In this document: positions 18,427-38,583 of the stretch, one piece after another
Layout of the letters: every line of letters begins with the position of its first letter
Numbering within the stretch: position 1 is the first letter of the stretch
Source: Fimbriimonas sp.
GTDB taxonomy: Bacteria > Armatimonadota > Fimbriimonadia > Fimbriimonadales > Fimbriimonadaceae
Reading direction: 5' to 3'
NCBI GenBank assembly: GCA_031292555.1
Contig: JARLGV010000062.1
Coordinates: forward strand, 1 to 64,000
DNA length: 64,000 bases
Position numbers and translations under genes: made by a program
The notes under the pieces: model-generated
Databases searched by the model: none
What the model saw: only the letters and a program-made list of their open reading frames with translations
Told to the model about the DNA's origin: nothing

Positions 18427-21400
18427 TTACTGGGTGATCGTGGTCGGATTCCAGTTAGGGGCGATGGTCTCGAAGTAGATGTCGGAGACGCCGGTTCGTG
18501 AGCTGCCCCAGAAGAGCCAGATCAGCGGAGGACGTCTTTGACTGATAAACGAGAACGGATCGAGGAAGGCGCTTAGGTCGGATTCGTTCACCGCGTTGTC
18601 GATAAGGATCTGCTGTTCGAGTTCCTCACGGATCCACGTTACCGGCACTCCCTGGTAGGAGAGGTTGCCGGTCGAGCCGGTCGCCAAGACTGCAGTGTAT
18701 TTGATCGAGACCTGGTTGTCTTCATCTGCATCCGTGAAGTAGATGCGTCCGTTGGCCGGATCGATTTGATACGGCCCCTTAGCGCCCGTCACGGATACGA
18801 AGACCGGTGCTCCGTTCGCGGTCGTTGCGATGCTGGCTGGCAACTGAACGCCAAACCGCAGAGTGCTGATGTACGGACGCGGAGGTCGGCCTGCGCCGCC
18901 GGCCGCCTGATTGTAGGTGAACACGTACCGATCGTTCGGGATGCTCACCGAGAAGTCAGCTTGTTGTCCGTTGGCAAGTCGCCAGTATCCGACGTTCGTC
19001 GTTTGACGCGCGTCGAATAGACCGGTCGGCTTTGCGTAACCTTGGGTCGAACCGGCGCTGATTCGCAAGAACCGAGGAGTGTACGATGCGAACAAAACCG
19101 CTGCCCCGTTCGGCGCCGCATTCGGGAACCGGACGGTGCCGAGTCTCGGGTCGATGTACACCTTGCCGCCAAGTCGGCAGTCGAAGGTGATCGTGCCGGA
19201 AGTCTGATCGTAGACCGCCGTGCCCGGAATCAAGAGGTTTGTCGTGACTCCGTTGAGCGTCTGCGATAGCACGATCGAAGCGTTGCGATCCCAGTCGATG
19301 CCGAGAGCTCGGTAGGTGCCGGGCTGACCGGAAGCGATCAGGCGCTCGCCCGCAATCGGACTGAGATCCATGAATACGTTTCCATCTGAACCGGCACTGT
19401 TTGCCGGGACGCCCTGATCGTCTACGACGACCAACGCACCCGAGTCGACCTTCATCCGACCGTAGAAGATCTCCGGAATCGACCGACCCTGGAGCTGACC
19501 GGCGAAGGTCAGTTCGACCACGTCGTTTCCAGCGGCCAGCGTCTGAGTAGCCGTACCGGGGATGAATTCGCCGGCGCCGTTATAGACGCGTCCGACGGCA
19601 GACGGCGAAGCCACCCACTTGAACGCACTCCCGAACGGCAGCACGAGCGACGGACCGAAGCCGGCCGAACCGGATCCGGCGTTGCCGTAGGTCGTGTAGA
19701 AGATATTGGACTGACTACCGCCAGCGCCGGTGTAGAACACCATTGCTCCATTAAGCGTCTGCACGAGGCTGGGCTTGCCCTTCTCGATCTGAGGATCGGA
19801 GGTCATCGCGACCGGTGGCGCGATGCTAACCGAGCCGCCTCCGGACGGCGTCACCACCGACATGAACAACTGGGACTGGCCGATGCGTCCGTTCGGCGTC
19901 TGCTTCTGAGCATCGCCGGTGAACGCCATCAGCAGTCCGCCGAAGGTCCCGGTCGGGTTGAACGGATTCTTGACGCCGGAGGTCGGGAACGTCGGGTTGC
20001 CGAACTGAACGGTTCCCGCAACGACCGACTCGCCGGACAAGCTGCCAAAGAGTACGTCGGGAGCGACGTTCGGGTAGTTCCCGACCGCCTTGTTGAACCA
20101 TTGAGTATTCGTCGAGGGCTGGAAACTGTTCAGGTCGCTAAGCGATGACTGAGCATCGACTGTGTTGGAGATGCCTCCTGAGCCGAAGGTCGCACCGTTT
20201 CCGACCGTTCCGATGAACAGACTGAAGTTCCCAAGTTGGGTCGATGCCGTCGGCTGGGTAGGCGCCCAATTCGGGCGATCCGATGCGAACGCCACGAGAA
20301 GCGAGCCGTAGGAATCGCGGACCATCGTCGGCTGCTTGTTGCTGTAAGCGAACGGCGCAGTGCCGTTCGGCAGCGCAAGGCTGTCGAGCATCGGCGCGGC
20401 GTAGTTCGTGAATGAACTGGTGAGCTGCGTTTCGCGAACCTTGAAGTTCACGGTCAGCGTCGGGTCGCTTGCCGGTTCCGGTCCGGTTCCGTATCCGTTG
20501 TTGAACAGTTGCCAGATCTCGTTACCGGGCTGGAACTCCTGCTCAAAGACTTCGACGGTGTTCGAATACGGTCCGACCGGCATTCCCAGCGGAACCGACA
20601 CACCGATGTGCGGAGGGCCGGGGGGAAATACAAGCGAGCCGCCGGAAACCAACGTGTTCAGTACGTCAGGGAAGCCGGCGCCGAGAGTCGGCGAAGTTCC
20701 GTTCGTTCCCAGGTTCGCGTTCGCTAACCTGACCGGATTCACGCTGAGCTGCGAGGGGGCCACACTGGTTATCCTTGCTTTCTGTAGTGCCACCGGATAG
20801 GGGGTAGCAGAACTCGTCCCGGATGGGGCGAACGTCGTATCGATGTCGCTCCATAGGTCCACCGATCCGTCAAGGAATCCAAGAGAATCGTTCAGCGGCG
20901 AGAAGAAGCCCCACGGGTTATAGCCGTTGAGGTTTGCGCCCTTCGCGACCCGGAGATTGAGAAGGTTGACGTTGCCGCGGTTTTCCACAACAAACGGCTG
21001 GAACATTCCCTTGTCCGGTCCACCCCAGGGCGAGAACGGAGAGTTCGTGGTTCCCGGTCGAAGCGGGCTGTAACCGGCGCCTGCCGGCAACGTACCCAAA
21101 TCGATCGTCGGAGTGGTGATGGCGATCTTCTCATCCACATCCACCGACGTGCTGAGGTTGAAGCCGCGATACGTTTCGCCCGGAGATCCGTCGAGCACGC
21201 CGTTGCCGTTGCTGTCAACAAACACTTCGACGCGCCCCAGGTAGCCCTGATTGAGGAAGGAACCGGCCGAGTTTGAAACGAGTGCCCCTGCCGTGGAAAC
21301 CTGGGCGTTCGTGTTGGGCGGCTGGAACCTCGGAACGTTTATCGTCATCGCGAACTGCGTTCCTACGAGCTTGCGCCACGAAGGATCGTCGCCCAATTCC

Positions 21401-24400
21401 ATCTGCCGCAACTTACCGGTGTTCGGATCCAAGACCATCGGCGGCAGCAACGAGACTGAATTGAATCGGGGATTCTCGGCAGTGCCGTTCGGGTCCTTGG
21501 TGACTTGCACCTGTTCGCTCTGGAGGTCCGGATAGTCGAAGCTATCGTTAGGATAGTTGTCCGGATAGTCTTCGAAGTTGGCGTAGTACGGCAGCGGCAG
21601 CTTCTTGTAGATCGCCAGATCGCCGCCCTGCCACCCAAGGTTATTGAGTGTTAGACGCACGTTGTCGAGTCCGGTGTCGTCCGGACGCTGCAGACCCATC
21701 ATGCTGCGGTCGATCACCCAGATCGGCACCGTCTGGGACGAGCCGTGCTGCGCGACGTTCGTCGCGGCGCCAAGCAGGTTCTCCAGCTTGGTCGTGCCCG
21801 GCAGTTTGGGACTGCCGTTGACGAGGTTCTCCGCATTGGACGGAGAGACGGATAGCCCCATCGATACCAGGTCTGTAAAGTTGCCATTGGTATCCGGGCC
21901 GTTCATCGAGATCGCGATCGGATTCGCCATCAGGAACGGGTTGTTGGCTAGCTTGGGATTGAGCGCGATGTTCTGCTGCACATTATTGGTGTTTAAAGCA
22001 GACGACGAGATCGAGATCGAGATATTGCCCGGCCCTGGCGGCAAGGATTGGTTCAAGCCGCTGGCGAAGGTGTACGACAGAACCGCATAGCCATTGTCCC
22101 TTTCGATACCGTTCGGATAGTTCGGATCTGCTTGATCGTCCGGAGCGTTTGGTGGCTCTGTGAACAGCCGAGCTTCTGCGGTTATCGTTCGGATCGTCTT
22201 ACCTTGCGCGCTAAACGTGATATTCACGACGGGAGGCGCCACGGTTGAAGCACCGTTCGTGGTGAGATACGGGAAGTTGTAGACCAGGATGTAGGCCGTT
22301 TCGCCCCATTCGAACGCCAGCGGCGTTCGGCTGAACGAGTAGGCCGCGCTGATGGCCGAATAGTAGTCCAGGTTCGAACCGGTCGGCTGGCGCAGCAAGT
22401 TGTAGCCCTTCTGGTTTACCAGCTTGATCTGGGCATGCCGGAAGATCGCTCCCGCTGGGTTGTTCTCCGTGATCGTCTGGCCACCGGGAGGGTTACCCTG
22501 GGTGATATAGCCGCTGCCGTCATTGAACGCATAAAAGAAGCCGTTCTGGTCTGCGCCGTACATCCAGTTATTCGACACCGCCATCGTACTCTTAACGGTT
22601 TCGGACGGCGTCACGAACTCCCAGGCTCGTCGGCTGCCGTTGAACGGTGTGCCGATTCCGTACTGGTTCGCCATTACCGGGTCGGCGAAGAGAGAGTCGA
22701 ATCTGCCATCCAACGTCGGGATGAGGATTGTTGGGAACGGATTCGGAATGCCGTTGTTATCGTAGACGGTCTGCCATGTATAGCTGACCGAGCCGATAGC
22801 GCCAACATTCAATTCGTTCGTTTCGAACTGCACGGCGCCATTCAGCGCATCGAGTGCATAGACGTAGTTGTTCTGGTTGACTGCATAAACCAGCCCGTCG
22901 GTAGCAAGAACACCGCCGGCGGTAGCGTTCGTATCGCGTACGACAGCCGGTCCCGAGGAATAATTCAGCGGGGTGTAAGACGTGCTGTCACCACTGAAGG
23001 ACCAGATTGCCGGTGCCGTTCCGTTACTGTAATTCGAGGCGTTTAGGCAATAGAAGACGCCGCCCGTCTCGTTAGTCGTGTTTACGCATGTGCCGAAGTA
23101 CAGGTAAAAGGGCCCAGATGTCGACCCGGTCGTGGATGTGTTGTAGAAGGCAGGCGTTGTGATGATCGGTCCAAGTGTGGGTTGAGTCGTCTTCGGGAAG
23201 GCCCATAGCACGTTTGTGGATTTGTCAGACTTGCCCACCGCATCCAACGCATACATGCGGCCCTGAAGGGTCGGAGCGTAGATCGTCGGGACGGAGACTC
23301 CGCCGACCATCGGCGCGCCGTAAGCCAGCGAACCTTGGAAGGCCCCGAGCTTACTGTTGGCAATTGCGCTTGCGCTCGGTGCTGTAGACGGATAGGTCCA
23401 GATTCGGTTAGTCGTACCGATCGCACTCTTCTGGGCGTTGTTCACCGCGTCGCCAAAGTCGCCATTGCCGGCCATATCGATGCAGTAGACGCGTCCGTTC
23501 GAAGTTGCGATGTACAAGTAGTAGGCGTTTGTGGAAACGGAAGGCATCGGTTCGACGAGAGCTGAACTGAGGCCGAATCCGCTTGGCATCTCGGCGCCGA
23601 GGTCCTTCCCCGCAACCTGGTTGGGGTCAGTGCCGTTCGTGCCAAGAGTGCTTGGATAGCTCCAATACTCGGTCGTGGTTCCGTCGCCGTTTCCGGTCGC
23701 GTCGAGGCAGTGGATATAGCCTGCCTCGTCAGAGACGACGACGACCTGCGTCATCTTGTACGTCGACTTGTCCGTCTGAAGGATCGGCACGGTCGCGATC
23801 ACTGGAGTCGACGAGAACGACTGGGTCTGACCTTCTCCGACGAATCGGATCGCGTTCGCATAGACGGTCGAGTTCTGGTCGCCTGGGATGTTGTTCGAAC
23901 CGTTGGTGACGCGCACCTTAAGGATCGCGGTCGTCGGGATGTGGTTGAACCGGCGAGTGCCGATTTGAACCCATCCACCACCGACTGCCTGGTTGACGTA
24001 CCAGTTGGTGATGGACGACCCTTCAATAACCTGATACAACACGCTCTGCCCGTAGGTCTGGCCGTTGTTGTTCCCAGGAAGATAAGCATAAATCTGGTAA
24101 GTGCCCTGCCCCAACGACGCACCCGAGTAGGTAACGCTGTCGGTAGCCACGCCTCCCACCGGAATTGTGGCCTCGGACACGTATGCCCCTGAATAACGAG
24201 TGGCGGTGAGGTTGTTCGTAAACCCACCGGTAACCGCAGCAGTCGTGTTGTCGGTCGTATAGGGCAGGTTGCCCGACTGCGGAGGCGTGTAATTCCAATT
24301 CGGCGTACCAAGCGCGTAGTTGTACGACGTCACATTGCCGGTCACGACCGTTGACAGAGACGTGCTTGTGCCACCTGAAGAAAGCTGGTTTCCGGCCGCG

Positions 24401-25350
24401 ATCGTATAGGCGGTCGCGGCGGTGCCGGGCGTTAGTTGGGCGGAAACCGGGCTGGCATCGTAGTATCCGGTCAAAGGAACGGCCATTGCGGCGTCAGCAT
24501 AGACCACGATGTTGTTCGCCACGTTCGTCGCGTTCGGGCTAGGCAGCGTTGTAGATACCGTGCCGTCGCTCTTTAGCGGGTCCGTGTTAAAAAGAGTAAT
24601 CGTGATGTTGTTGACCCCGTCAAAGGGGAACACCATATTCGTGGGATTCCCGCCGTTACCGAGTCGGACCCATCCGCCGCCGGTCAAATACGTGTCGACT
24701 ACGTCGGTGTACGTGCGGCCGCCAGCGCTAATCTGATAGACGTAATACCTTTGAGGGAACCCTTCGACGTTGCTAAAGACTTGCGGCCCGTTGGGAAGCC
24801 AGACGTAAAGTCCGTAGTTGCCCGGTGTGGTCGTAGGCGTCGTAAATGTCCAGATCGCCTTCGTCAGACCGGCTCCGCCTTGGGTGGGATCGGACTGCGA
24901 TGTGGAGGGAATTACGTTGGTAAAGATGTAGGAGGGCACCGCGTAGTTTCCGGCGCCATTCAGAACGAGGTACGGATTGGCCGCGTCCTGGTCGTTTGTA
25001 TTGCCGTCCGAACTAGGAGAAACCACCCAGGCGCTCGTAGTTTGGAAGAGGCCGCTCGTATTAGCGCCCAGCCCGTACGTGTTGTCTACGATCAAATTGG
25101 TCGTTAACTGGTTCGTAACGTCGCCGGGTGACCACCAGCGCAGGTTCGACTGGCCTGGGCCCGACCCATGGGGATCGCCGTTATGGCCTTGGCGGGAGCT
25201 GCCACCCTTGAACGTGTGCCAGTTCTCCGCGTACACGCTTAGCTGCGCCGATGCACATGCGCTAAACAGCAGCGATGACACGATCGCCAGGGGAATGAGC
25301 CATTTGCTCTTTCTGGTTTCCATTAATCTCACCAAAGTGTTCATCTTCAT
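18427..25350 (-). CDS. Giant exported PQQ-type beta-propeller protein (2307 aa), last gene of the pilus tip-like operon
   Basis: Signal peptide-like segment at 16-35 (SSLLFSACASAQ). Two golvesin-like lectin/CBD-type domains at about 105-290 and 355-505 (NYGLYVWLPNG, TYQIYAYLPGN, each followed by GGGWV). Seven PQQ-like propeller repeats at about 515-950 (for example GRVYCIDMAGNG, GRMYALDAVGK, NYVYALDALNG). A calcium-loop-like DSNGNGVLDG at about 1379-1388. Four or five BNR-like units at about 1674-1968 and 2275-2296. ATG 25350 overlaps the preceding stop; ATG 25323 (METRK...) is an equally good start. Position after PilV/W/X-like genes suggests a surface or pilus-tip adhesin comparable to PilY1, but this is inference. 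Confidence 0.75.
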   Translation of the reverse strand: MKMNTLVRLMETRKSKWLIPLAIVSSLLFSACASAQLSVYAENWHTFKGGSSRQGHNGDPHGSGPGQSNLRWWSPGDVTNQLTTNLIVDNTYGLGANTSGLFQTTSAWVVSPSSDGNTNDQDAANPYLVLNGAGNYAVPSYIFTNVIPSTSQSDPTQGGAGLTKAIWTFTTPTTTPGNYGLYVWLPNGPQVFSNVEGFPQRYYVYQISAGGRTYTDVVDTYLTGGGWVRLGNGGNPTNMVFPFDGVNNITITLFNTDPLKSDGTVSTTLPSPNATNVANNIVVYADAAMAVPLTGYYDASPVSAQLTPGTAATAYTIAAGNQLSSGGTSTSLSTVVTGNVTSYNYALGTPNWNYTPPQSGNLPYTTDNTTAAVTGGFTNNLTATRYSGAYVSEATIPVGGVATDSVTYSGASLGQGTYQIYAYLPGNNNGQTYGQSVLYQVIEGSSITNWYVNQAVGGGWVQIGTRRFNHIPTTAILKVRVTNGSNNIPGDQNSTVYANAIRFVGEGQTQSFSSTPVIATVPILQTDKSTYKMTQVVVVSDEAGYIHCLDATGNGDGTTTEYWSYPSTLGTNGTDPNQVAGKDLGAEMPSGFGLSSALVEPMPSVSTNAYYLYIATSNGRVYCIDMAGNGDFGDAVNNAQKSAIGTTNRIWTYPSTAPSASAIANSKLGAFQGSLAYGAPMVGGVSVPTIYAPTLQGRMYALDAVGKSDKSTNVLWAFPKTTQPTLGPIITTPAFYNTSTTGSTSGPFYLYFGTCVNTTNETGGVFYCLNASNYSNGTAPAIWSFSGDSTSYTPLNYSSGPAVVRDTNATAGGVLATDGLVYAVNQNNYVYALDALNGAVQFETNELNVGAIGSVSYTWQTVYDNNGIPNPFPTILIPTLDGRFDSLFADPVMANQYGIGTPFNGSRRAWEFVTPSETVKSTMAVSNNWMYGADQNGFFYAFNDGSGYITQGNPPGGQTITENNPAGAIFRHAQIKLVNQKGYNLLRQPTGSNLDYYSAISAAYSFSRTPLAFEWGETAYILVYNFPYLTTNGASTVAPPVVNITFSAQGKTIRTITAEARLFTEPPNAPDDQADPNYPNGIERDNGYAVLSYTFASGLNQSLPPGPGNISISISSSALNTNNVQQNIALNPKLANNPFLMANPIAISMNGPDTNGNFTDLVSMGLSVSPSNAENLVNGSPKLPGTTKLENLLGAATNVAQHGSSQTVPIWVIDRSMMGLQRPDDTGLDNVRLTLNNLGWQGGDLAIYKKLPLPYYANFEDYPDNYPNDSFDYPDLQSEQVQVTKDPNGTAENPRFNSVSLLPPMVLDPNTGKLRQMELGDDPSWRKLVGTQFAMTINVPRFQPPNTNAQVSTAGALVSNSAGSFLNQGYLGRVEVFVDSNGNGVLDGSPGETYRGFNLSTSVDVDEKIAITTPTIDLGTLPAGAGYSPLRPGTTNSPFSPWGGPDKGMFQPFVVENRGNVNLLNLRVAKGANLNGYNPWGFFSPLNDSLGFLDGSVDLWSDIDTTFAPSGTSSATPYPVALQKARITSVAPSQLSVNPVRLANANLGTNGTSPTLGAGFPDVLNTLVSGGSLVFPPGPPHIGVSVPLGMPVGPYSNTVEVFEQEFQPGNEIWQLFNNGYGTGPEPASDPTLTVNFKVRETQLTSSFTNYAAPMLDSLALPNGTAPFAYSNKQPTMVRDSYGSLLVAFASDRPNWAPTQPTASTQLGNFSLFIGTVGNGATFGSGGISNTVDAQSSLSDLNSFQPSTNTQWFNKAVGNYPNVAPDVLFGSLSGESVVAGTVQFGNPTFPTSGVKNPFNPTGTFGGLLMAFTGDAQKQTPNGRIGQSQLFMSVVTPSGGGSVSIAPPVAMTSDPQIEKGKPSLVQTLNGAMVFYTGAGGSQSNIFYTTYGNAGSGSAGFGPSLVLPFGSAFKWVASPSAVGRVYNGAGEFIPGTATQTLAAGNDVVELTFAGQLQGRSIPEIFYGRMKVDSGALVVVDDQGVPANSAGSDGNVFMDLSPIAGERLIASGQPGTYRALGIDWDRNASIVLSQTLNGVTTNLLIPGTAVYDQTSGTITFDCRLGGKVYIDPRLGTVRFPNAAPNGAAVLFASYTPRFLRISAGSTQGYAKPTGLFDARQTTNVGYWRLANGQQADFSVSIPNDRYVFTYNQAAGGAGRPPRPYISTLRFGVQLPASIATTANGAPVFVSVTGAKGPYQIDPANGRIYFTDADEDNQVSIKYTAVLATGSTGNLSYQGVPVTWIREELEQQILIDNAVNESDLSAFLDPFSFISQRRPPLIWLFWGSSRTGVSDIYFETIAPNWNPTTITQ

Positions 25351-28300
25351 CGCCGATCCGCAAAGACGGGCATCAGGATTCCGCGTGTGCCAGTTGGCAG
25401 CGTTCCATTCAGGTCAAGCGTGATGCTTGCCGTGCCAAACCCCAGGTTCATGGCTGACGAGCCGGCATTGGGCGTGCCGTTCACCTGCATCACTTCGCCG
25501 GGGAACGCTCCCCCACCCAAGGTGTAGCCGTTGTAGCCGTTGACGATCAAGATCTCGCCTGAATCCAAACGGCGCGCATACACTGCCTTCAGGCTGACCG
25601 CGTTCGTTCCCGAAGCCACCGTTATTCCGCCAAGGCTGGTTTGCTTGATTCCAACATAAGCCTCGTTCGGCATATACCAATTGAGCACGAGCGCCGTCGG
25701 ATTGACCGCGTTGTAGAACCCTTCATAGATGCCGGTGCTGTCCGAAATCATGATCGCAATCTCGGGCACGGCAGATCCACCCGATCCTACTTGGACGACT
25801 TTCGCCGTCACTGAGTTCAGCTTTGCAAATCTATGGAGACCGCCCGCCCGGCGAGCATAAGTTGTGCTTCCGTCGACTGCCGCAAGCGTGTCGAAGGCTC
25901 CCGTCTTCTGATCCCAGAATGGAATCCCAAGAGTCGACGGAAGCGTGACCGAGTTGATCGCCTGAACCCCGCTCGGCGTCGTCGGATCGAAGATCACGAT
26001 CGAGCCGTTTCCGTCGTTCGCGTCCAGAACGCTGTTAGGCCCTGCCGGAGACAAGCCGGTGCCTGCCGCCGTCGCGAGCGTACCGTTGATGCCGGTCACG
26101 TAAACGAAGTGGTAGCCAACCGACGAGGAGTCGGGAACTCGTACCCGGTTAAGGCTGGTGTAGGCGTAGTTCTTTCCGGAGAAAGTTGCCGGCGTGTGCC
26201 ACAGGAGGACGCCAGTCTGCGGGAAGGCGATTCCATTGGAGCCCGTGATCGTCACCGGTCCTCCGACCGCTTGAGTAGCCGGATTGTAGTAAAAGCGATC
26301 GATCACTTCGACCAGCCTCCGATTGCCGGTATCGGCGATCAGGTAGTGCTGCCACATCTCGACGCTATTGCCGTTCTCGCCGTCGCCCAGCGTCACCAGG
26401 GTTCCGGCGGCGCCCGACATGTTCACATAGCTGGTGTAGTACACCGCGTCGCTCGGCCCGCTCAGCGTGAGCGGCTCACCGGCGACGAAGCCCTGAGGAA
26501 TGACGTTCGGATCAAGCTGGAAGCTGGCGATGGATCGAGCTTCGATACCGTCGGTGTTCAGGCTGGCCACCCGATTCGCGCCTGCATCGACGACCAACAG
26601 GTGGTTGTCGTTGAGCGCATAGGCTCGGACTGGCCGCACCATCGGTTGCATAGCGGCACCGGATCCTACGTTCGTAGGCCCCTGGCTGACCGAGGAATCG
26701 GTAGTCCAGATCGGATTGCCGCTCGGATCGAGTTCGATGACCCGTCCTTCGTCGCATACGATGAAGTTTGCCTTCGAGAAGGTGTAGAGGCCCTGATCGC
26801 CCCACGCGGCAAGAGCGTTATCGCCGCCGATGACTCCGTAGGCAGTGCCCGAAGGAGCGACGCCGGCGCCGCCGAGCACGGTCTGGTTCAACCGAATCTG
26901 GTAGTCGCTGAAGCTCCTTACCGAACTCAATTGGGGCCAGAGCACGTTCGCGTCTCCAGTAGCGCTAGAACCGGTCGGGTTGTCGATCGTCCAAAGCTGG
27001 TTAAGCCAGGGCTTATTAGGATCGGGATGCAAGCTGCCCGCGCCGATCTGCGCGTTGAGCGCATAGAGCACGCCCGTCGTCGTGAATGACGAACTCCCAT
27101 TGAGAATCGCCGGAAGGTAGCTGGCGCCCGACACGAAAACCGAGTTGCCGGTAATGAGCGGTCCGCCGCCGCCAGGCGTCGTACCGTCGATGACGTAGTA
27201 CCACTGCACCGGATTCCAGACCGATCCGCCGATCGCATCGGGCTGGACCAGATAATCGGGTTTGCCCGGCTTGCGAATGATGATCGGTTGGCTCAGGCTC
27301 AAGCAGTTCTGAACCTGTCCGCGCTGAACGCTGGAAAGGTTGGGGAACGAGAGCACCTGAGTCGTCGAATCGTACGTGTAGCTGCCGGAGGGAATGACGG
27401 TCTGAATCTCGGGCGTGGCCGCGATCGTGCTTCGGGCGATGTCGGGCTGAAGCACCTCGGTGCCATCCGGCCAATCGCCAACCAGCAACTGAGCAGCCTG
27501 GGGTTCGGCGTTGAGCGCCATCACGACCGTCACCGGAATGCCTTTCTTTGACGCCGAGACAGTGACCATCACCTGGCCATTTCGAATCGCCGGTCCTCCA
27601 CTGAACGTGAAGTTGCTCATCGTTTGATTTAGCAACGATGCGATCGCCGGGGAAGCGTTATTCGATAGCCACGTGATCAGTCCGTCGTTGTCGTTCAGAA
27701 CGGGCCCAAGCGTCGCGCTGTTCGACTGGTTGAGTGTGACCGTGTGCTTGCTATACAGTTCGTATCGCGATACGCAGTTGAAGAGCCCACGGCCCTGTTC
27801 CCGGAATCCGAAGAGGCCGCCGCCGCTGCCATCGGCCGCCACCACATAAGCGGTTCCGCGCGGCGACAAGGCGACCGGACCGATGACCCGCCGAGGTGAA
27901 GTGCTGCCACTGGACGCTTGGTCCGGCAACATCACCATGCCGCGCTCGACCGAAGACAAGACGCCCGGAATGTTGCTGCCCCAGTCGATCGTGTAGTCGA
28001 TACGAACGCCGCTGACCGTCGAAGGAAGTTGATTGACCGTCGGCTGGAACGGGAAGCTCAGGATTCCGCCTCCAAGGTCCTGGACGTCGCCCTTGAAGAT
28101 CGCCGCCATCTGGGTGGCGCTAAACGGATTGCCGCTGTTGTCGATCAGGGTCAACTTGACGCCCAATGATCCGCTGCCCGTATAGATTGGAAGTCCGCCC
28201 TGCTGGCTGGCGCGAGTCGTAACCTGAAGCGCCGTCGCCGTGTTGGAGCCCTGCGGATCGTAGCTGATCGGACGCTCGCCCTTCACGCCAAGCCAGAGGC

Positions 28301-30116
28301 TGGTAAAGCCCTCGGATGTGACGCCTTGCGACGGGTTACCGGCGAACGGGGTGTAGAGAACCTTGTCCACGCCACCCGAGTTATCCAAGATCGGGATGTA
28401 ACCGACGGTGGTGCCGTAGGTGAATTCGGGAAGGTTGACGGACGAGTTGCTTCCTCCGACCACGAACGGTCCCGTGGAGGAAATCTTGGTTCCCGTGCTC
28501 AGGTCGACCAACCAAATGCGTCCAGTCAGAACACCCGGATTCCGCTGATAGTTGTCGGTGACATAGGCAACGCCTTCCGACACGGTCGGAGCCAGCGGGA
28601 CCGACGGTGAAACCGAGGTGTCCAAAGAAGAAGCGCCGTTGGGCGGAGCGATCGAATAGCCCAGGTTCGGTTTGGAACTAAGCGTCCCGTCGCTGTTTCG
28701 AGGTTCGAGATTGAAGACGTACAACGTACCGGTGGCATCTACGACGAGAACTTCGTCGGTAGGTCCGCTCACGTTGTTGGGCACTTCGCAGCATACTGGC
28801 GCGGAAAGCGGCGCCGTCATCGTACCGGCCGCACTCTCCCAGATCTCGTCGTAAGACGTGCCGAGCCCGTAATCCTGAATTCCCTCGTCGGGGTTGCCAT
28901 CGCCGTCCAGGTCTTCCACCGGGTTGGCATCGAATACCTTCAGAACACCGTTCACGGTGGTCACAAGCATGCCCTTATAGAGGGTCGGCGACGCCAGACT
29001 CTGGTTCGTGGAGTAGTTGCTATCGTTCACGAACGACCGCATGATGAGCGGGGGGTTCAGATCGATCGCGCTGCTTCCGGTGCGCCGGCTCCCGCCATTT
29101 TGCTGTCGATACTGGCTGAGCATACCGACCATGTTGACCGCAAGCTTGGCGGCCGAGAGTCCGTCTGCATCGAGAACGGGCGGCAGTGCGGTGAACGAAT
29201 TCACGTTTGCCGCGTAGCTGACCACCGTGTTTCGCGCCCGGTTGAGCTTAAGAGAGGCGCCGCGTGCCGTCACAACCACCGCACCATCGCCGATGCGGCC
29301 CAGCGAGATCACTGGATTGCCGTTATAGCTGCTAACCGTTTGATACCGGAGGAAGTCGATCATCGCGCCGCCGGCCAATCCGGACGCTCCGGATGCGCCG
29401 TAGTCGATGCCGATATTCGGCATCCGCAGGAAATACGGCTGGAAGTTCGAGTCCAGCATCGTATCAAGGTTGTCGATATCGCTGGAACTCACGTCCAGAA
29501 TCGAATGAATCAGGATGTTGTTGACGTCGGTCTGTTCCAGGCCAACGGCGTTTGACGCCTGCTGAACGAAGGGGATAGGGAAACTGTTGAACTCGTCAAT
29601 ACCGGCGATCGTGTTGGACATGCCGGCCGGGTCGATCCAGAGAATTCCGCCCTGATCGACGAATCTTCGGAGCCGCTCCCTTTCCGTCGGATTCAGCGAC
29701 GCAAAGGCATATGGGTTTACGAGCAAGAGATCGTAGTTGCCGATGCTGTCATCCGTCAGGTTGCTGAGGAACACTTCCCAATAGGGAGCGTTCCGCTTTG
29801 TGATCGGAGTGCCGATGTTGGGCGTGCTCGAATCGATGGCCGACCAGCGCGCATAGATGTCGGACGTAACCCGAGAGGGCGCGTACGGGTTTACAAAGCT
29901 CCAACCAGCCGGTTTCACCGACGTGTTGGCATCGAGGTTGTACAAAGCATAGGGCGCCGCGCTCTGAGGAGGCGCCGTCACCGAAGTTTTGGCGCTCGCC
30001 AGAATCACGATTCCAGCTCGAATCGTCTGTGCGCGCTGCGAGTAGGCTTGCGGTCCCGCCAAAGCCGAGGCAGCTAGACCTACAAGACCAACCCATCCAA
30101 GCAAACGGCCTAACAT
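25347..30116 (-). CDS. Large exported PilY1-analogue with beta-propeller repeats (1589 aa)
   Basis: Signal peptide 1-26. Residues 35-340 resemble a GATase-like/DUF4159-style domain (YDLLLVNPYAF, RRFVDQGGILWIDPAG, IGDGAVVVTARG). A calcium-loop-like DLDGDGNPDEG is at about 402-412. From about 370 onwards come PQQ/NHL-like propeller repeats (VLKVFDANP, LLVVDAGANRVASL, YLIADTGNRRLVEV). I start it at ATG 30116, one base after the stop of the preceding gene; a longer frame exists but overlaps that gene. PilY1 proteins also combine an N-terminal alpha/beta domain with a calcium-binding propeller and follow pilX, so the position fits. Direct homology to PilY1 is not shown. Confidence 0.7.
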   Translation of the reverse strand: MLGRLLGWVGLVGLAASALAGPQAYSQRAQTIRAGIVILASAKTSVTAPPQSAAPYALYNLDANTSVKPAGWSFVNPYAPSRVTSDIYARWSAIDSSTPNIGTPITKRNAPYWEVFLSNLTDDSIGNYDLLLVNPYAFASLNPTERERLRRFVDQGGILWIDPAGMSNTIAGIDEFNSFPIPFVQQASNAVGLEQTDVNNILIHSILDVSSSDIDNLDTMLDSNFQPYFLRMPNIGIDYGASGASGLAGGAMIDFLRYQTVSSYNGNPVISLGRIGDGAVVVTARGASLKLNRARNTVVSYAANVNSFTALPPVLDADGLSAAKLAVNMVGMLSQYRQQNGGSRRTGSSAIDLNPPLIMRSFVNDSNYSTNQSLASPTLYKGMLVTTVNGVLKVFDANPVEDLDGDGNPDEGIQDYGLGTSYDEIWESAAGTMTAPLSAPVCCEVPNNVSGPTDEVLVVDATGTLYVFNLEPRNSDGTLSSKPNLGYSIAPPNGASSLDTSVSPSVPLAPTVSEGVAYVTDNYQRNPGVLTGRIWLVDLSTGTKISSTGPFVVGGSNSSVNLPEFTYGTTVGYIPILDNSGGVDKVLYTPFAGNPSQGVTSEGFTSLWLGVKGERPISYDPQGSNTATALQVTTRASQQGGLPIYTGSGSLGVKLTLIDNSGNPFSATQMAAIFKGDVQDLGGGILSFPFQPTVNQLPSTVSGVRIDYTIDWGSNIPGVLSSVERGMVMLPDQASSGSTSPRRVIGPVALSPRGTAYVVAADGSGGGLFGFREQGRGLFNCVSRYELYSKHTVTLNQSNSATLGPVLNDNDGLITWLSNNASPAIASLLNQTMSNFTFSGGPAIRNGQVMVTVSASKKGIPVTVVMALNAEPQAAQLLVGDWPDGTEVLQPDIARSTIAATPEIQTVIPSGSYTYDSTTQVLSFPNLSSVQRGQVQNCLSLSQPIIIRKPGKPDYLVQPDAIGGSVWNPVQWYYVIDGTTPGGGGPLITGNSVFVSGASYLPAILNGSSSFTTTGVLYALNAQIGAGSLHPDPNKPWLNQLWTIDNPTGSSATGDANVLWPQLSSVRSFSDYQIRLNQTVLGGAGVAPSGTAYGVIGGDNALAAWGDQGLYTFSKANFIVCDEGRVIELDPSGNPIWTTDSSVSQGPTNVGSGAAMQPMVRPVRAYALNDNHLLVVDAGANRVASLNTDGIEARSIASFQLDPNVIPQGFVAGEPLTLSGPSDAVYYTSYVNMSGAAGTLVTLGDGENGNSVEMWQHYLIADTGNRRLVEVIDRFYYNPATQAVGGPVTITGSNGIAFPQTGVLLWHTPATFSGKNYAYTSLNRVRVPDSSSVGYHFVYVTGINGTLATAAGTGLSPAGPNSVLDANDGNGSIVIFDPTTPSGVQAINSVTLPSTLGIPFWDQKTGAFDTLAAVDGSTTYARRAGGLHRFAKLNSVTAKVVQVGSGGSAVPEIAIMISDSTGIYEGFYNAVNPTALVLNWYMPNEAYVGIKQTSLGGITVASGTNAVSLKAVYARRLDSGEILIVNGYNGYTLGGGAFPGEVMQVNGTPNAGSSAMNLGFGTASITLDLNGTLPTGTRGILMPVFADRR

Positions 30117-30117
30117 C

Positions 30118-33100
30118 TTATTGCACCTCTCCGAAAAACGCCAGCGTTGGACTGACGGGCAGCCGAGGCATCGGCGGCAAGGGACGTCCATAACTGTCGG
30201 TCCTGATGAGGGTCCCCGGACCGTTGTCAATGACATATCCGTTCGACCTGCCGGTGGCGAGCACCGGATCGTAGTTGATGATGAGATTCGGAATGATCAA
30301 GGGATTTGCGAGAGTCGATGCCGGAGGCACGTGGGACCCCGGAATAACCAGCCCGGTTGCACCCAGATCCTTCGGAATCCATCCCCACTTCTTGAGCCAT
30401 TCGGCTTGCACCGAGGCCGGCGGCGGCATGTTCTCGCTCACCGCGCCCGAGATGACGATGCGGATATCCAGCGGTTCGCCGTAGAACGGGAATCCAGGTG
30501 TTGCACCAAAATTCTCCAGCCGGATCGCATCCTTCTCCGGCGTGGTCGATGCCCCGGCGTACACGTCTTCGCTGGACACATAGTAGTCCCGGCGATCGTT
30601 CGGGTTCGGGTTGAACCAAGGGCCAGGGATCACAAAGAACGATCCTTGCTCAGCATAGATCGCCGCTTCGATTCGGATATCGTTCGGAGCCAGCGCAGCT
30701 CGACCCACGATGTAGTCGTTGGTCGCAACTCCCGAGATGCTCGTCTGGCGAATCGTCAGTTCGTTGGTACCTTCGGCGAACAGCGCGTAGGCGCCGGTCG
30801 GACCGTTCGCGACCATCTGCTGACCGTCAGACGATGTCGTCATCGTCGTCGGATCGATAACCGGGAAGGTCGTCTCCTCAAACTTCGGATATCGCTGGTC
30901 GACTTCAGAGCCAAGACCATACTCCGGAATCATCGACGTCGGCGTAATGCCGGTGATGTAGTTGAACGCGGTGTTCGTTCCTCCGGCGAGGAAGAAGTAA
31001 GGCGACGGAGCCGGACCGCCCATGTTAACGTCCAGCTGGAAGAACGTTGCCGGCGCTGGGCCATCGTCCATCGTGTGGGCGATCAGCAGGTTCGTAGGCA
31101 GTTTCACCGCCGGGATTCCGGCTTCAGAGTAGCCCATGTTGAACGTCTGCCACGTGCTCGGATTGTTTGGATTTGCGGTGGGACCCTGGGGGTCTCGAGC
31201 GAACTCCGTGTCCAGCGATAGGCTTCCGCCCGTGCGAACTCGAATCGGGTTGAAGCCGATCTGGTTTGGAGTATCGTTGACCGGTTCCGCCTGCTGGTTC
31301 GGCGACAAGCCGAGGAACTGGGTCGTGTTGACCGTGACATAGTCCTTGGCCATGAGCATCAGCATCGACTTCGAGGGCCGGGTCAGCAGTTGGCCGATGG
31401 CGTACCCTTCGGTCGGCTGGAGCCCGTTCGCCGTGATTCCCTTCGTGATGCTGCCCTCAATGTAGATGCTCGCATCAGAGACGACGGTCAACTGAACGTC
31501 GGTCGGAATGACGCCGCGAACGCGAGTGTTGCCTTCGAAGTAAAGTACGCCGTTGAAGACCGGACCCTTATCGTAATCGCTTCGCTGCAGCGTTCCGTTG
31601 ATGTTGATTGTGGTCGTCGGAGTCGCGCTGCTGGCTGGCGTGAACGAGTTCACAATGTGGCGAAGGCCGTCGGAACCCAAGCCGATGCGGAAGTGATTGA
31701 GAGAGTTCCCGGTGTCGCTTCCATCGATATAGCGCCAAGTGCGCTCGCCCTGAGGCGCCTGGCTGTCGCGCTGGATCGTGAAGCCGTCGTCGAGGAGCTT
31801 GAGGATTGCTCCAGGCGGCACGTAAAGATAGCCTTGCCAACCCGAATGAGCCTGCCCGTTGTTCGGGTTTAGCCAGTCGTATGTCAAGGATTCTTGCGAG
31901 CCAATATTGGTTCGACCGCTCTCGTCGACCGGGCCTTGAACGTCGGACGGGTTGTAAACATAGATGCCCGAACCAAATCCATAGCGGCCGTTGTTCCCGT
32001 TGCCACCCAAGGTTCCGCTATCCGCCGTCATCGTAACGTACCGATTCTCGTTGGTATCGGGATCGGTCACGAGGATGGAAGGCGGAGTCTTGATTCCCAG
32101 GCTTCGAACGTTGCCTGCCTGGTCGGGGTTACCTGCGCCGTCGCGAACCAAGCCGCCCACCGTGTTAAAGTTGGGGTTCATGCTGTCGAGCGTGCCCCCT
32201 GCTTCATTGAGAATGGTGGTGTTAGCGGCGAGCCATGAGCCAAAGGTCGCGGAAGACGGGTTGGTGTCGACATCTCGCGACACAATCGTCAACTGACCGC
32301 CCTGATAGCCGTACTGACCATCGGCAGAGTCGCCCGTGATGGATCCGGCAACATCGAATTGGTCGCCCATGTATCGGTTCAGGTTCAGGACGTTGTTGCC
32401 GTGTACGACGACGTTCGCATTCGAGTAGAACGAGCCATTCCCCTCGATCTGTCCGGCCGGCGTGGGAGGATTGCCCAGGTTATACAGGGGCATCGTTCCA
32501 CCGAGTTGGCTGTTGATGTTGGACGCCACGAACGTTCCGCTATTGATTGGATACTGTACGCCGAGTTCCTTTGGGAAGCCAATGTCGGCCGGACGGCTCA
32601 CGTTGAAGATGTTCGTGATATACCGGGCGGACTCGATTATTCCGATCGAAGCGAACGCTCGAAGCACCTGGGTGTTGGGATATTTCGACTCAGCCTGTTT
32701 CATCAGGCCAAGCGCGGCTCGGAAGTCCAAATCCGTCGCGAAATTGCGGAACTGGAGCGGATAGCCGGTACTGAGCGTCGTCGGGTCGTTGACGTTGATT
32801 TGCCCCTCTCGACCGATCGCTTCGATAATGATGTAGTCCCGAGCCAAGCCGGGCCGGCGCAACGGACCGACGGGGGAGTTGCTGAAGATGTTGGCGTCGC
32901 TAGGCGCGTAGCGGACTCTTACAAGAGAGCGGCCGTTTGCATTGTTGATCCGGAAGAACGGACCGAGACCGTCGGGACCGCCCAGATCGATCTGAGTGCC
33001 GCCCGGCGTCACAGTGAGAGGAGTCACCCCATCAGCCAAGGTAGCGGCGGGCCGAAGGTAGTAGGCATCGGGATCCAGAGTTCCGTTACCCGTTCCCAGG

Positions 33101-33354
33101 CTCGTCGGCGTTCCTCGCCAGTCGGCGCCCAACTCGCTTTGCAGAAGCTGCTGATGGGCATACCGGATTCCGCCTTGGGCCAAGTCGTAGGCGACCGATC
33201 GGTTGCCGAGATTAAAGGTCGTCTTTCCGTTCCGGTCGACGATCCCGATAAAGACGAACCCGAGGATGAGCAGGACGCCCAAGACAACCATCGCGATGAT
33301 GATCGTCTGGCCTCTTTGTCGCTGGCTCTGTGGCTGTGTAATTGTGGGGTTCAT
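30118..33354 (-). CDS. PilX/GspK-like giant minor pilin component (1078 aa)
   Basis: Residues 13-18 (QRQRGQ) followed by a 20-residue hydrophobic helix (TIIIAMVVLGVLLILGFVF) match the PilX_N pattern. Cleavage would fall after Gly, but Glu5 of typical pilins is missing, as in GspK-like subunits. The remaining 1000 residues are Gly/Asn-rich and beta-prone, far longer than the 150-300 residues usual for PilX. ATG 33354 lies 5 bp after the previous stop; a GTG is in frame at 33363. It sits between PilW-like and PilY1-like genes, the order known from pilV-pilW-pilX-pilY1 operons. Confidence 0.7.
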   Translation of the reverse strand: MNPTITQPQSQRQRGQTIIIAMVVLGVLLILGFVFIGIVDRNGKTTFNLGNRSVAYDLAQGGIRYAHQQLLQSELGADWRGTPTSLGTGNGTLDPDAYYLRPAATLADGVTPLTVTPGGTQIDLGGPDGLGPFFRINNANGRSLVRVRYAPSDANIFSNSPVGPLRRPGLARDYIIIEAIGREGQINVNDPTTLSTGYPLQFRNFATDLDFRAALGLMKQAESKYPNTQVLRAFASIGIIESARYITNIFNVSRPADIGFPKELGVQYPINSGTFVASNINSQLGGTMPLYNLGNPPTPAGQIEGNGSFYSNANVVVHGNNVLNLNRYMGDQFDVAGSITGDSADGQYGYQGGQLTIVSRDVDTNPSSATFGSWLAANTTILNEAGGTLDSMNPNFNTVGGLVRDGAGNPDQAGNVRSLGIKTPPSILVTDPDTNENRYVTMTADSGTLGGNGNNGRYGFGSGIYVYNPSDVQGPVDESGRTNIGSQESLTYDWLNPNNGQAHSGWQGYLYVPPGAILKLLDDGFTIQRDSQAPQGERTWRYIDGSDTGNSLNHFRIGLGSDGLRHIVNSFTPASSATPTTTININGTLQRSDYDKGPVFNGVLYFEGNTRVRGVIPTDVQLTVVSDASIYIEGSITKGITANGLQPTEGYAIGQLLTRPSKSMLMLMAKDYVTVNTTQFLGLSPNQQAEPVNDTPNQIGFNPIRVRTGGSLSLDTEFARDPQGPTANPNNPSTWQTFNMGYSEAGIPAVKLPTNLLIAHTMDDGPAPATFFQLDVNMGGPAPSPYFFLAGGTNTAFNYITGITPTSMIPEYGLGSEVDQRYPKFEETTFPVIDPTTMTTSSDGQQMVANGPTGAYALFAEGTNELTIRQTSISGVATNDYIVGRAALAPNDIRIEAAIYAEQGSFFVIPGPWFNPNPNDRRDYYVSSEDVYAGASTTPEKDAIRLENFGATPGFPFYGEPLDIRIVISGAVSENMPPPASVQAEWLKKWGWIPKDLGATGLVIPGSHVPPASTLANPLIIPNLIINYDPVLATGRSNGYVIDNGPGTLIRTDSYGRPLPPMPRLPVSPTLAFFGEVQ

Positions 33355-33359
33355 GGATA

Positions 33360-35600
33360 TCACCGGATGTAGTTCTTGACAGCGGCAGTCGCCTTGAGCG
33401 TTACGGTCTGCGGATTCGGAGTATTCGTGGTCTGCGGGTAGTTGCGGATCGTCAGAAGCACCGACATCAGTTGCCGCGTATCGTAGTCGACGGCGAACAC
33501 GTCGCTCTTTGCTCCGACGATCGCCGTACCCGTCTGTGTTCCATTGAACTGGAACTTGTACGACACCTGGATCTGGCCGATCGGAAGCGGCGCGGTCGGA
33601 TCAGAGTTGAACTTGATGTAGCCCTTTTTGTAGCGTGGCTGAATGATCGCGCTGCAGAAGTTATGCGCGTCGTATACGTTCGGGTTGAACCCGTTGACTT
33701 CGGCTGCGGTCAGCCCCAGAAGGGTGTAGTCGATCTGGTTAGAGGCGTTGGTCGGCTCGGGCTGATCGACGTAGTTCATCTGGTACTGATTGGGGCCAGG
33801 AGTCTGCGTTGTACGCGTATAGCGAACGGTGGCTCGCTGAAGAGGGTTCGTTCCAGGGATGTTGTCGGTCGGATCGAGTTGATCGGGACCGTAGACGATT
33901 TCGCTGCCAGGCACGATCCGGCACTTGGCAAAGCCGTTGACGGGGTTGAGCGGACTTGGCGTGCCGTCTGCCGTAGGGGTAGTGCGCAGGTCGATGAATC
34001 GGTCGATCTGCGGCTGCAGGTTCGACGCGTTGGCCCAAACCCAGTTGAATATCTCATTGACGGAGGCGAACGCCGGGTCGTAGAAGTTCCCGCCCACAAC
34101 GTTCGGATCCTGGCCAGCTGCGAACGGGCCAGTGTTTGACGGGTTGGTGGCCACTGTCGGTAGGTTCTGCGGATTCGTCAGGCTCGGCGAGGTGTTCGGA
34201 TTGCCGACTTCGGAGATGTTGAAGCTCGTGATGACCTTGCCCTTCGCCGAATTCAAGTCATATGGAACAAAGAGGTTCGTGATAGCCGGATTCGTCATCC
34301 AACCCGACCGGTTGTTAGCAGCCGTAATCGCCTGGCTGAATGGATAGCGCCCGCCAGAAGAAGTCACCAGATCGTACGTGTAGAGATCGAACACTTCGAT
34401 GCCGGAGGCGACGTCTGAAATGGAGCCGGACGGATCGTAGTAGTAGATGCTGAATCCGGGAGGGGCGCCGGCGGTTCCGTTCGAAGGGTCGTTTCGGCCC
34501 ACGAAGTACTGACTCACCGTATTCGGCACCGCGTTTGGATCCCAAGTCTGGGGCCAAGTACGTACGATCTGGTTGCTCCACATCCCGTATTGAGTCTTGA
34601 AGATGTCGGGCGCGAACGCAGCCGAGTTGTTCGCCTCTTCCCCTTCCCGAACCGCAACCTGACCTTGGGCGGGATCGTTGCCGACGTGGGACGGGCGGAA
34701 CTGGATCAGCGGAAGGACAACCGGAGCATCACCATGATAGAGCGCCGTTCGGGTGAACTTGTTGTAAACCGGCTGGATCATGTCGAACCGGCTCAACTCG
34801 GTCTGCATAACCGAGACCGTCTTCCAGTTATTGACGCGCGTATTCTTGTTCGGATCGATCGTCCCGTCGTAGCCCAAGCCGTCTGGGATAAAGAACCGGG
34901 GATCGTCTAGCCCACGGATCTGAGTGTCCGTCGGATCGGCCTGGAAGAAATCCAGGTTGGGTCGAAACGCACCATTCCGCCATACGTAAGGCTGCACCTC
35001 AGCCCGGTAGAGCACGAACAAATTGTCCCGACCGCCACCGAAATTCATCAGAATCCCGTCATACGGATTGTTGTACGGGTTGGACGGATCGCGAAGACCG
35101 ACGAAGTAGCGAACGATCGTGGTTCCGGTACCAACGGGAAGAATGATCTGGCCACGCGCCGAGTGAAGCGTCGGGTCGACAAACCCGTTAAGCGGGTTCG
35201 TATATCCGCCCGCCGCCGAACCACCGTGGAGGTCCGCCTGAGCCGCCTTGAGGAGGTCCATCTTTACGTAAGGGAGAACGACGTCGATCGTTCCGACTTC
35301 CGGAGGCTGAATCGGCAGTTGGATGATCAGCGAGTGCTGCGGAACGTTGGCGACCTTTCCATTCAGGATCGTAGCAACCTGAAGGCTCGAACTGCGAGTG
35401 CCAGTCGAACTGGCAATCTCTCTCGAAATCCGGTCCGCAAGGATGCGCGCCCGGGCCTGCGCCTCGGCGAACGCCTGAGCCGATCGGGTGAAGTTAAAGC
35501 TCTGGAAAACTGGGACGACGATGATCGTCATCAGCAGTGCGGTGATCGCAATCACCGTCAGCAGCTCAATGAGCGTAAAGGCGCGTTTCTTGGTCATCAT
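33360..35600 (-). CDS. Large PilW-like prepilin (746 aa)
   Basis: The N-terminus MMTKKRA then FTLIELLTVIAITALLM is a type IV prepilin signal with Glu5. The residue before the cleavage site is Ala instead of Gly. The following helix continues into the ARARILADRISREIASS coiled region typical of PilW/GspJ-like proteins. The long C-terminal part (about 650 residues) is Asn/Pro/Gly-rich and unlike any enzyme I recognise. Near the end it has GYIKFNSDP...GQIQVSYKFQF, a hairpin motif seen in neighbouring proteins. The start overlaps the stop of the preceding gene (ATGATGA). Confidence 0.75.
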   Translation of the reverse strand: MMTKKRAFTLIELLTVIAITALLMTIIVVPVFQSFNFTRSAQAFAEAQARARILADRISREIASSTGTRSSSLQVATILNGKVANVPQHSLIIQLPIQPPEVGTIDVVLPYVKMDLLKAAQADLHGGSAAGGYTNPLNGFVDPTLHSARGQIILPVGTGTTIVRYFVGLRDPSNPYNNPYDGILMNFGGGRDNLFVLYRAEVQPYVWRNGAFRPNLDFFQADPTDTQIRGLDDPRFFIPDGLGYDGTIDPNKNTRVNNWKTVSVMQTELSRFDMIQPVYNKFTRTALYHGDAPVVLPLIQFRPSHVGNDPAQGQVAVREGEEANNSAAFAPDIFKTQYGMWSNQIVRTWPQTWDPNAVPNTVSQYFVGRNDPSNGTAGAPPGFSIYYYDPSGSISDVASGIEVFDLYTYDLVTSSGGRYPFSQAITAANNRSGWMTNPAITNLFVPYDLNSAKGKVITSFNISEVGNPNTSPSLTNPQNLPTVATNPSNTGPFAAGQDPNVVGGNFYDPAFASVNEIFNWVWANASNLQPQIDRFIDLRTTPTADGTPSPLNPVNGFAKCRIVPGSEIVYGPDQLDPTDNIPGTNPLQRATVRYTRTTQTPGPNQYQMNYVDQPEPTNASNQIDYTLLGLTAAEVNGFNPNVYDAHNFCSAIIQPRYKKGYIKFNSDPTAPLPIGQIQVSYKFQFNGTQTGTAIVGAKSDVFAVDYDTRQLMSVLLTIRNYPQTTNTPNPQTVTLKATAAVKNYIR

Positions 35601-37707: not shown

Positions 37708-38583
37708 CTAAGGTCCAACCTTCCAGGACATCGTGTTGACGAGAACCGAATCATAGGCCCGGGCCGATCCGCCCAGGAAAAGCACGATGTCCATCTTGTT
37801 TTCCTGAAGGGCGCCGCCGCTGTAGTCGCGGAAGTAACTATCCCAGGTAACGACGGTGGACTCCGGAGGATCGGAGTATCCAAGCTGGCGAGGATCGTCC
37901 AAGGCGCTGCCCGTCTCCCCCGCAACCGGATGGCAAGGATCGGCGGCTACCGTAAACTGACTCCAGAACGGAGCGTAATGGATCTCGTTTCGCGTACCGT
38001 TCCCGTTTTCGTTCGGGACCGTCGCGACGTCGAAGCCGCTGATCTTGTAATACTGATTCTCAACATCGTACGGAACCGTCACGCCGTCGTTCGGGTTGAA
38101 GCACCGAATCACATTGGCGTCACCGAGAATACTGATATCGGTCGGCCCGTACCGCTGTGGCGCGTTGTTGTAAGCGCTTCCGCCGCCGGGAGCCTTGTTC
38201 GGCCAAACCGCGGGAGTGAACTGCGCGAACTGCTGGCCGGCGGTGATCCGGTCGTACGCTGGCTGCAGGGTCGTCAGCGAGTCGATCCGTTTGGGATAGA
38301 GCGCCCCGACAACCTGGTTCGCAGGCACCATGTCAGCCTCGGTCGGGTTCGGACCGCCGCCGTACTGCGTCACATAGCCGAGCAGCGCCGGAGGGTAGCC
38401 GCCCTGGTCCTGGCGGTAAAGCTGGAGCGCGGAGCGGATGGCGTTCATGTTGGACATGTCCGAGCTGCGGTAGGCAGATGCTCGAACTTGGGAGAACACC
38501 GGGAAGATTATGCCGGCAAGGATTGCGATAATCGCAATCACCACGAGTAGCTCAATGAGCGTAAAGCCAGCCTTCTGGTTCAT
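37708..38583 (-). CDS. Type IV pilin / pseudopilin (291 aa)
   Basis: MNQKAG then FTLIELLVVIAIIAILAGIIFPVF is a textbook class-III prepilin leader with Gly at -1 and Glu5. It continues FSQVRASAYRSSDMSNMNAIRSALQLYRQDQGGYPP, a pattern common in GspG/PilE-like proteins of Armatimonadota and Planctomycetota. Two cysteines lie near the C-terminus-half (RCFNPN and DPCHP). I start at ATG 38583 with a GGGG site upstream; the open frame to 38760 overlaps pilD and is rejected. It may be the major subunit or the first minor pilin of the operon. Confidence 0.88.
   Translation of the reverse strand: MNQKAGFTLIELLVVIAIIAILAGIIFPVFSQVRASAYRSSDMSNMNAIRSALQLYRQDQGGYPPALLGYVTQYGGGPNPTEADMVPANQVVGALYPKRIDSLTTLQPAYDRITAGQQFAQFTPAVWPNKAPGGGSAYNNAPQRYGPTDISILGDANVIRCFNPNDGVTVPYDVENQYYKISGFDVATVPNENGNGTRNEIHYAPFWSQFTVAADPCHPVAGETGSALDDPRQLGYSDPPESTVVTWDSYFRDYSGGALQENKMDIVLFLGGSARAYDSVLVNTMSWKVGP

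Follow-up and report, generated by a model that had tools for sequence, protein, structure and literature searches.

Type IVa pili are known to carry PilY1 as their tip protein. The FimU, PilV, PilW, PilX, and PilY1 proteins encoded by Myxococcus xanthus gene clusters assemble into priming and tip complexes; together with the minor pilins, PilY1 primes pilus formation, occupies the pilus tip, and has been proposed to stop retraction (PMC7541494). PilY1 combines a variable N-terminal part with a seven-bladed propeller bearing a Ca site, and no conserved domain other than vWFA and DUF4114 had been identified in the PilY1 proteins compared (PMC13190605). In Thermus, the pilus tip is enlarged by a domain inserted in ComZ, a pilin with a beta-solenoid (PMC6561018). 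None of the open-licence papers listed was seen to treat an Armatimonadota counterpart of PilY1, a single one mentioning both the phylum and PilY1, and the word PilY is absent from the main text of the Fimbriimonas genome paper, which lists pilus genes (PMC4072686). In this study, we examined a window of 64,000 nt from Fimbriimonas sp. (GCA_031292555.1, contig JARLGV010000062.1, positions 1-64,000), in which a pilus operon ends with the gene of a 2307-aa protein, here P0001. Our findings support a model where P0001 is probably a secreted, PilY1-like tip or priming protein of a type IVa-like pilus, built differently from PilY1 and accompanied by a second propeller protein encoded beside it. The support for this reading is gene order and predicted fold.

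P0001 is encoded by a single ORF (18427..25350), the terminal gene of the operon; all window coordinates given here lie on the minus strand. The operon runs pilB-pilT-pilC-pilD-pilin-V-W-X-1589 aa-P0001, with 4-bp overlaps at V-W, W-X, and 1589 aa-P0001 (ATGA), 1 bp from X to the 1589-aa gene, and gaps of 14-142 bp between the earlier genes. The parts of a type IVa pilus machine found in it are a PilB-like extension ATPase (42560..44326; T2SSE, E 5e-131; TIGR02538, 611 bits, below the cut-off of 676), a PilT/PilU-family retraction ATPase (41265..42533; TIGR01420, 507 bits, above the cut-off of 319), a PilC-like platform protein (39987..41219; T2SSF, E 5.6e-65; best NCBIfam PilC model 421 bits, below the cut-off of 700), a PilD-like prepilin peptidase (38666..39844; A24_N_bact, E 1.3e-29; Peptidase_A24, E 5.3e-11), and a pilin with a GspG-like N-terminus (37708..38589; N_methyl, E 3e-9, scanned without the start codon; TIGR01710, E 8.5e-12, below cut-off). 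PilB and PilC thus score below the NCBIfam equivalog cut-offs and above those of Pfam, while PilT is above its NCBIfam cut-off. Secretins are found elsewhere in the genome, where ten secretin-domain ORFs exceed the family cut-off (on contigs C36, C85, C50, C137, and six others). Elsewhere in the window, a 1148-aa ORF (58759-62205) was without matches in Pfam (E<=0.01) and NCBIfam (E<=1e-10).

Downstream of the pilin lie a PilV-like prepilin of 698 aa (35597..37693; TIGR02523, E 3.7e-6, and N_methyl, E 0.0044, both below cut-off), a PilW-like prepilin of 746 aa (33360..35600; N_methyl, E 1.3e-5, above cut-off), which we take to be W from its gene position, and a PilX-like large minor pilin of 1081 aa (30118..33363), whose N-terminus was read by eye and lacks Glu5. 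For minor pilins, these three appear unusually large. The PilX family of Pfam matched neither the 1081-aa protein nor 26 X-like pilins; the absence of Glu5, read here from the sequence, is shared with Myxococcus PilX (PMC7541494). One member of the X-like family has a weak Pertactin match and one a weak match to the FapA beta-solenoid, which hints at an inserted solenoid like that of Thermus ComZ (PMC6561018). The comparison with ComZ concerns the X-like pilin, in which a solenoid is only hinted at; P0001 is not a pilin.

Like PilY1 elsewhere, P0001 occupies the last position in a cluster with V-, W-, and X-like minor pilins. Since its gene closes a type IV pilus cluster, P0001 may well belong to an adhesive pilus tip rather than be an enzyme. 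Residues 1-36 resemble a type I signal peptide (25243..25350; ...SACASAQ, read by eye), and hydrophobic N-termini also occur in the P0001 homologues listed; P0001 is apparently a very large secreted protein.

Both the protein and its surroundings are conserved. At E<=0.001, P0001 has a single match in its own genome and matches in 80 of the 85 genomes of its family, that genome included (67 of the 70 that are >=90 % complete and <=5 % contaminated); many of the 80 span almost the full length, others are fragments on short contigs. No match was found in five family genomes: G034, G059 and G060 (1.5 Mb), and G029 and G049, which are 68 and 72 % complete. With a profile of residues 1138-2307, matches, some of them weak, were found in 187 of 251 genomes sampled from the phylum (148 of the 179 good ones). 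A scan of 84,980 species, one genome each, returned 91 relatives, from which 79 loci were kept; as it relied on peptide patterns, distant relatives elsewhere could be missed. The records of these loci name Armatimonadota in 67 cases, only "bacterium" in 10, Abditibacteriota in one (L102), and an archaeon in one (L064). The latter, titled Methanoregulaceae archaeon, carries an Armatimonadota-type cluster and is probably mislabelled or a mixed bin. A single genome, UBA2387, holds two copies (L043 and L057), each preceded by separate homologues of the 1589-aa protein and X.

Of the loci, 64 have 3 kb or more of upstream sequence; homologues of the 1589-aa protein lie upstream in 59 of these, of X in 56, and of W in 49, and five loci showed none of the three (L096, L099, L103, L106, and L110). 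Five divergent loci have an opposite-strand ORF, PEP-CTERM-like by pattern and 415-441 aa long, immediately upstream of the P0001 homologue (L098 8382-9665, L101 3254-4576, L103 7870-9114, L106 5381-6625, and L109 5268-6590). The homologues were compared in several alignments. A1 holds 24 of the 29 relatives L003-L031 (L010, L018, L022, L023, and L030 omitted). With L057 skipped (stop or X), 65 full-length ORFs remained, of which 58 plus P0001 make up A2 and A4 (L038, L073, L081, L087, L092, L107, and L108 omitted as near-duplicates or cut) and 18 were chosen for A3; A5 comprises 29 chosen of 51, and A6 25 chosen of 33 listed, from 56 loci with an X hit.

Outside the window's family, we chose 40 genomes, 20 of the 187 matched by the P0001 profile and 20 listed among the 64 unmatched. 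Among the matched, pilT, X, the 1589-aa gene, and the P0001 gene occur in that order on one contig within 30 kb in at least 12 of 20; in four more (G195, G246, G256, and G267) the last three share a contig, and in another four the P0001 gene and X are on different contigs, which looks like a contig break in G085 and G153 but not in G103 and G203. The 1589-aa profile was found in 20 of 20 matched versus 6 of 20 unmatched genomes (two of the six weak), the X profile in 20 of 20 versus 18 of 20, and PilT in all 40. Detected P0001 therefore tracks the 1589-aa protein more than it tracks pili, and pili occur without detected P0001, a diverged version of which may be missed. Four genomes lacking a P0001 match (G093, G130, G095, and G107) have the 1589-aa profile, mostly adjoining an X gene, and a diverged homologue may follow there.

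The prepilin N-termini in the operon also resemble pseudopilins, genome models assign a type II secretion system to Armatimonadetes (PMC6668835), the ten secretin ORFs exceed their cut-off, and the PEP-CTERM-like ORFs precede the gene in L098, L101, L103, L106, and L109; all this would suit a large surface or matrix protein that binds polysaccharide, being either the substrate of a pilus-like (T2SS-like) machine or a mere sharer of the operon. We regard that alternative as unlikely, since the operon includes a PilT-family ATPase that scores above its cut-off and the gene order next to the prepilins is conserved, both of which speak against it. The same two observations favor a place for P0001 at the tip of a pilus.

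The architecture of P0001 was explored with AlphaFold2 models of residues 36-1010 (model 1) and 1138-2307 (model 2), residues 1011-1137 being in neither. An earlier note on this DNA had described a propeller, two golvesin-like domains, and a BNR/sialidase-like region in one protein; this outline holds, although its blade count, its placement of the golvesin-like domains, and its Asp boxes do not, and the pilus operon goes unmentioned in it. Among the open-licence PMC papers listed under pilus and golvesin terms, none was seen to describe this domain combination. The models predict two beta-propellers. Model 1 (59 sequences; pLDDT 85.7, pTM 0.84) superposes on Cake8, a designed eight-bladed propeller, over 319 of 320 residues (VIA-align; Z 36.6, rmsd 1.8 Å), followed by YxaL (Z 32) and BamB (Z up to 30.1). 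The aligned span, model residues 32-909, corresponds to residues 67-944 of the protein (elsewhere given as ~67-945). Thus, the first propeller is predicted to be eight-bladed and PQQ/BamB-like.

The PQQ-like repeats themselves are real: weak in the single sequence (PQQ_2 of Pfam, E 0.045, below cut-off; no match to PDB sequences at E<=1), they become strong in the family profile, which from sequence alone retrieves Cake10 at 2.8e-45 and BamB from 2.2e-16. Blade-versus-blade hhalign exceeded 50 % in both directions in 23 of 28 pairs (for example, 99.0 % for B2-B4), the exceptions being B1-B7, B1-B8, B5-B7, B5-B8, and B7-B8, whereas four control slices from elsewhere in P0001 reached at most 6.1 % against any blade; the slices (eight blades, two golvesin-like domains, and four controls) were cut by eye and drawn after the model was viewed. 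The seven repeats that had been placed at residues 515-950 do exist and correspond to blades 2-8 (residues ~507-945, 22516..23832; model 1 with its Cake8, YxaL, and BamB superpositions), but they are not the whole propeller. Blade 1 lies outside that range, at residues ~287-357 (24280..24492) between the golvesin-like domains, and aligns with blades 2, 4, and 5 at 88-95 %, versus near 1 % with blades 7 and 8. A closing strand with the motif LRWWSP is found at residues ~67-75 (25126..25152), where the Cake8 alignment starts (model residue 32; model strand 34-39), and its W72 and P75 are invariant in alignment A3. From this blade and this strand it follows that there are eight blades and that the golvesin-like domains are inserted rather than flanking. 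Seven blades, as first counted, are rejected in view of the Cake8 superposition and the blade-pair comparisons, and the structure prediction that had been proposed as a check gave eight, not fewer than seven. The fold and its blade repeats are common to BamB, YxaL, and other PQQ-repeat propellers (PF13360; Z about 27-32); in contrast to BamB and YxaL, the propeller of P0001 is interrupted around blade 1 by golvesin-like domains and is part of a 2307-aa protein.

The presence of both golvesin-like domains is upheld, though not as flanks of the repeats but as insertions in the propeller. Golvesin_C (PF25275) matches P0001 at E 5e-10 (40 bits, cut-off 31.6) over two stretches, the best at 367-504. 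Domain 2 (residues ~358-506, 23833..24279) exceeds the cut-off alone, at 32.3 bits; domain 1 alone does not (~157-232, 27.1 bits in the genome search), and its approximate borders (residues ~85-286, 24493..25098) are drawn from that match, its hhalign to domain 2, and the model. The two are homologous (hhalign 99.3 %, E 5e-20), and Golvesin_C is found at E<=0.01 in 12 of 19 diverse members of the P0001 family. Domain 1 is placed between the closing strand and blade 1, domain 2 after blade 1; standing thus before and after blade 1, they probably sit at the edge of the propeller. P0001 shares with the Golvesin_C family two such domains, but here they are built into a propeller encoded in a pilus operon. 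The characterized carriers of the CBM6-CBM35-CBM36_like_2 domain named in a study of two lectins from Bacteroides are golvesin and a xanthan lyase; by its account these two are not lectins, whereas its own subject proteins are (PMC9166713). It is plausible to hypothesize that the golvesin-like domains of P0001 bind sugars.

Model 2 (pLDDT 90.3, pTM 0.83) covers a beta-rich middle region (residues 1138-1590, 20581..21939) and a predicted sialidase-like propeller (residues ~1590-2301, 18448..20583). The middle region contains the calcium-loop-like DSNGNGVLD (residues 1379-1387, 21190..21216), with D1379 in 52 and D1387 in 21 of 59 rows; reported earlier as DSNGNGVLDG, the loop is indeed present, yet it lies outside the propeller and is only partly conserved. 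Sialidases, like the lectins AFL and RSL, have six-bladed propellers, and by analogy so would the second propeller of P0001. VIA-align of the top Foldseek chains placed on model 2 the sialidase-fold propeller 3h6j (Z 22.7, 308 residues, 3.3 Å), with GH93 arabinanases, sialidases, TolB, AFL (Z 20.1), and an RSL mutant (Z 19.7) among the other best chains; Foldseek itself gave 20 matches at E<=0.001, a beta-fructosidase first. A profile of residues 1138-2307 retrieved no PDB sequence at E<=1. A beta insert (residues ~1999-2247, 18610..19356; read by eye from the model strand list, border approximate) interrupts this propeller, and, among the stretches compared, conservation is highest in the final 55 residues (mean majority fraction 0.54 versus 0.37-0.43). 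The BNR-like later repeats of the earlier note survive in part: the Asp-box pattern has no match in P0001, although a sialidase-fold propeller is predicted there. With the Arg-bearing RIP motif of sialidases as a reference, the corresponding place, aligned by eye, has the consensus N-x-Q-P, and position 1672 is variable, with Arg in 6 of 59 rows. Thus, the second propeller shares the fold of sialidases, AFL, and RSL (Z about 20-23) but differs in lacking an Asp box by pattern and a conserved RIP-like Arg and in carrying the beta insert; it is apparently non-catalytic.

Such folds resemble those of PQQ enzymes, sialidases, and the GH93/GH43 families, and could suggest that P0001 is a quinoprotein dehydrogenase by its first propeller or a sialidase- or arabinanase-like hydrolase by its second. 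An enzyme is nonetheless very improbable: the variable RIP-like place speaks against the latter, and the first propeller is best matched by YxaL, BamB, and designed propellers. The idea of a periplasmic, BamB-like scaffold that serves outer-membrane assembly can be dismissed almost entirely, as BamB, despite ranking high in both the structural and the profile searches, differs in size, in the two golvesin inserts, the second propeller, and the pilus operon, and its model TIGR03300 scores 13.9 bits against a cut-off of 285. We kept BamB as a fold and rejected it as a name.

The interpretation of P0001 as a pilus tip protein leads back to PilY1. The two are alike in that P0001 is large, apparently secreted, and provided with a propeller and a calcium-loop-like motif, DSNGNGVLD differing in one place from the PilY1 motif Dx(D/N)xDGxxD and being conserved in part. 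Yet the PilY1 propeller is seven-bladed and C-terminal, while P0001 is predicted to have an eight-bladed, BamB-like propeller in its N-terminal part and a sialidase-like one at its C-terminal side, and it has two golvesin inserts and no match to PF05567, vWFA, or DUF4114. PF05567 matched neither P0001 nor its 1589-aa neighbor at E<=1 and none of 19 and 30 members of their respective families at E<=0.01; the Fimbriimonas genome gave no match at E<=1 in a search whose controls gave one weak match, and the 251 phylum genomes gave none in a search that drew no match from its control genomes either, so that the domain could have gone undetected there. PilY1 was also not among the best 50 matches of each fold search with model 1 (one of which had 1737), nor among the 49 sequences retrieved with the family profile. 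On PF05567, we reject membership of P0001 in the PilY1 family and keep a possible PilY1-like way of working.

The neighbor itself (25347..30116) has a DUF4159-like N-terminus; DUF4159 scores below cut-off in the window's own protein (18 bits) and is found at E<=0.01 in 27 of 30 members of its family. A PQQ-like stretch of this family is related to the first propeller of P0001 (hhalign 93.8 %, E 1.8e-7, with the N-terminal P0001 profile; 70.4 % with the full-length one). The family profile gave four weak NHL-type matches to PDB sequences at E<=0.1 and 13 at E<=10, including plant SOQ1, NELF-E, and Hoch_4089. An exact DxDxDGxxD loop is present, with D402, G407, and D410 nearly invariant, and corresponds to motif 1 of PilY1 (PMC13190605). 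The 1589-aa protein may be the nearer counterpart of PilY1 and P0001 a second tip protein.

From predicted architecture, operon position, and conservation, we infer a probable course of events. By analogy with PilY1 of Myxococcus, P0001 would be exported by Sec and assemble in the periplasm with its 1589-aa partner and the V, W, and X minor pilins; it would cap the nascent pilus and be carried outward on it. At this site, the golvesin-like domains, and perhaps also the second propeller, could bind glycans or extracellular polysaccharide, and PilT-driven retraction would then pull the cell. Several observations speak against this course: the missing PF05567 domain and the eight blades, the five loci devoid of upstream W, X, and 1589-aa homologues, the four genomes with X and the P0001 gene on separate contigs, the pili in genomes where P0001 was not detected, the incomplete length of some family matches, and the non-lectin nature of golvesin and the xanthan lyase, which argues in part against glycan binding. 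A more specific version, to which we give somewhat less than even weight, is a tip complex of Armatimonadota's own, in which oversized V, W, and X pilins and a pair of giant propeller proteins, of 1589 and 2307 aa, replace PilY1 without its domain, the larger being a glycan-binding tip with two golvesins inserted in an eight-bladed propeller.

If much of the phylum does use other propeller proteins instead of PilY1, tip complexes would be more exchangeable than thought, and surveys based on PF05567 would overlook such tip proteins. The inserted golvesin-like domains would, if true, offer a clear case of a propeller serving as a display frame for binding domains, and the pilus of Armatimonadota, a little-cultured phylum, would become testable.
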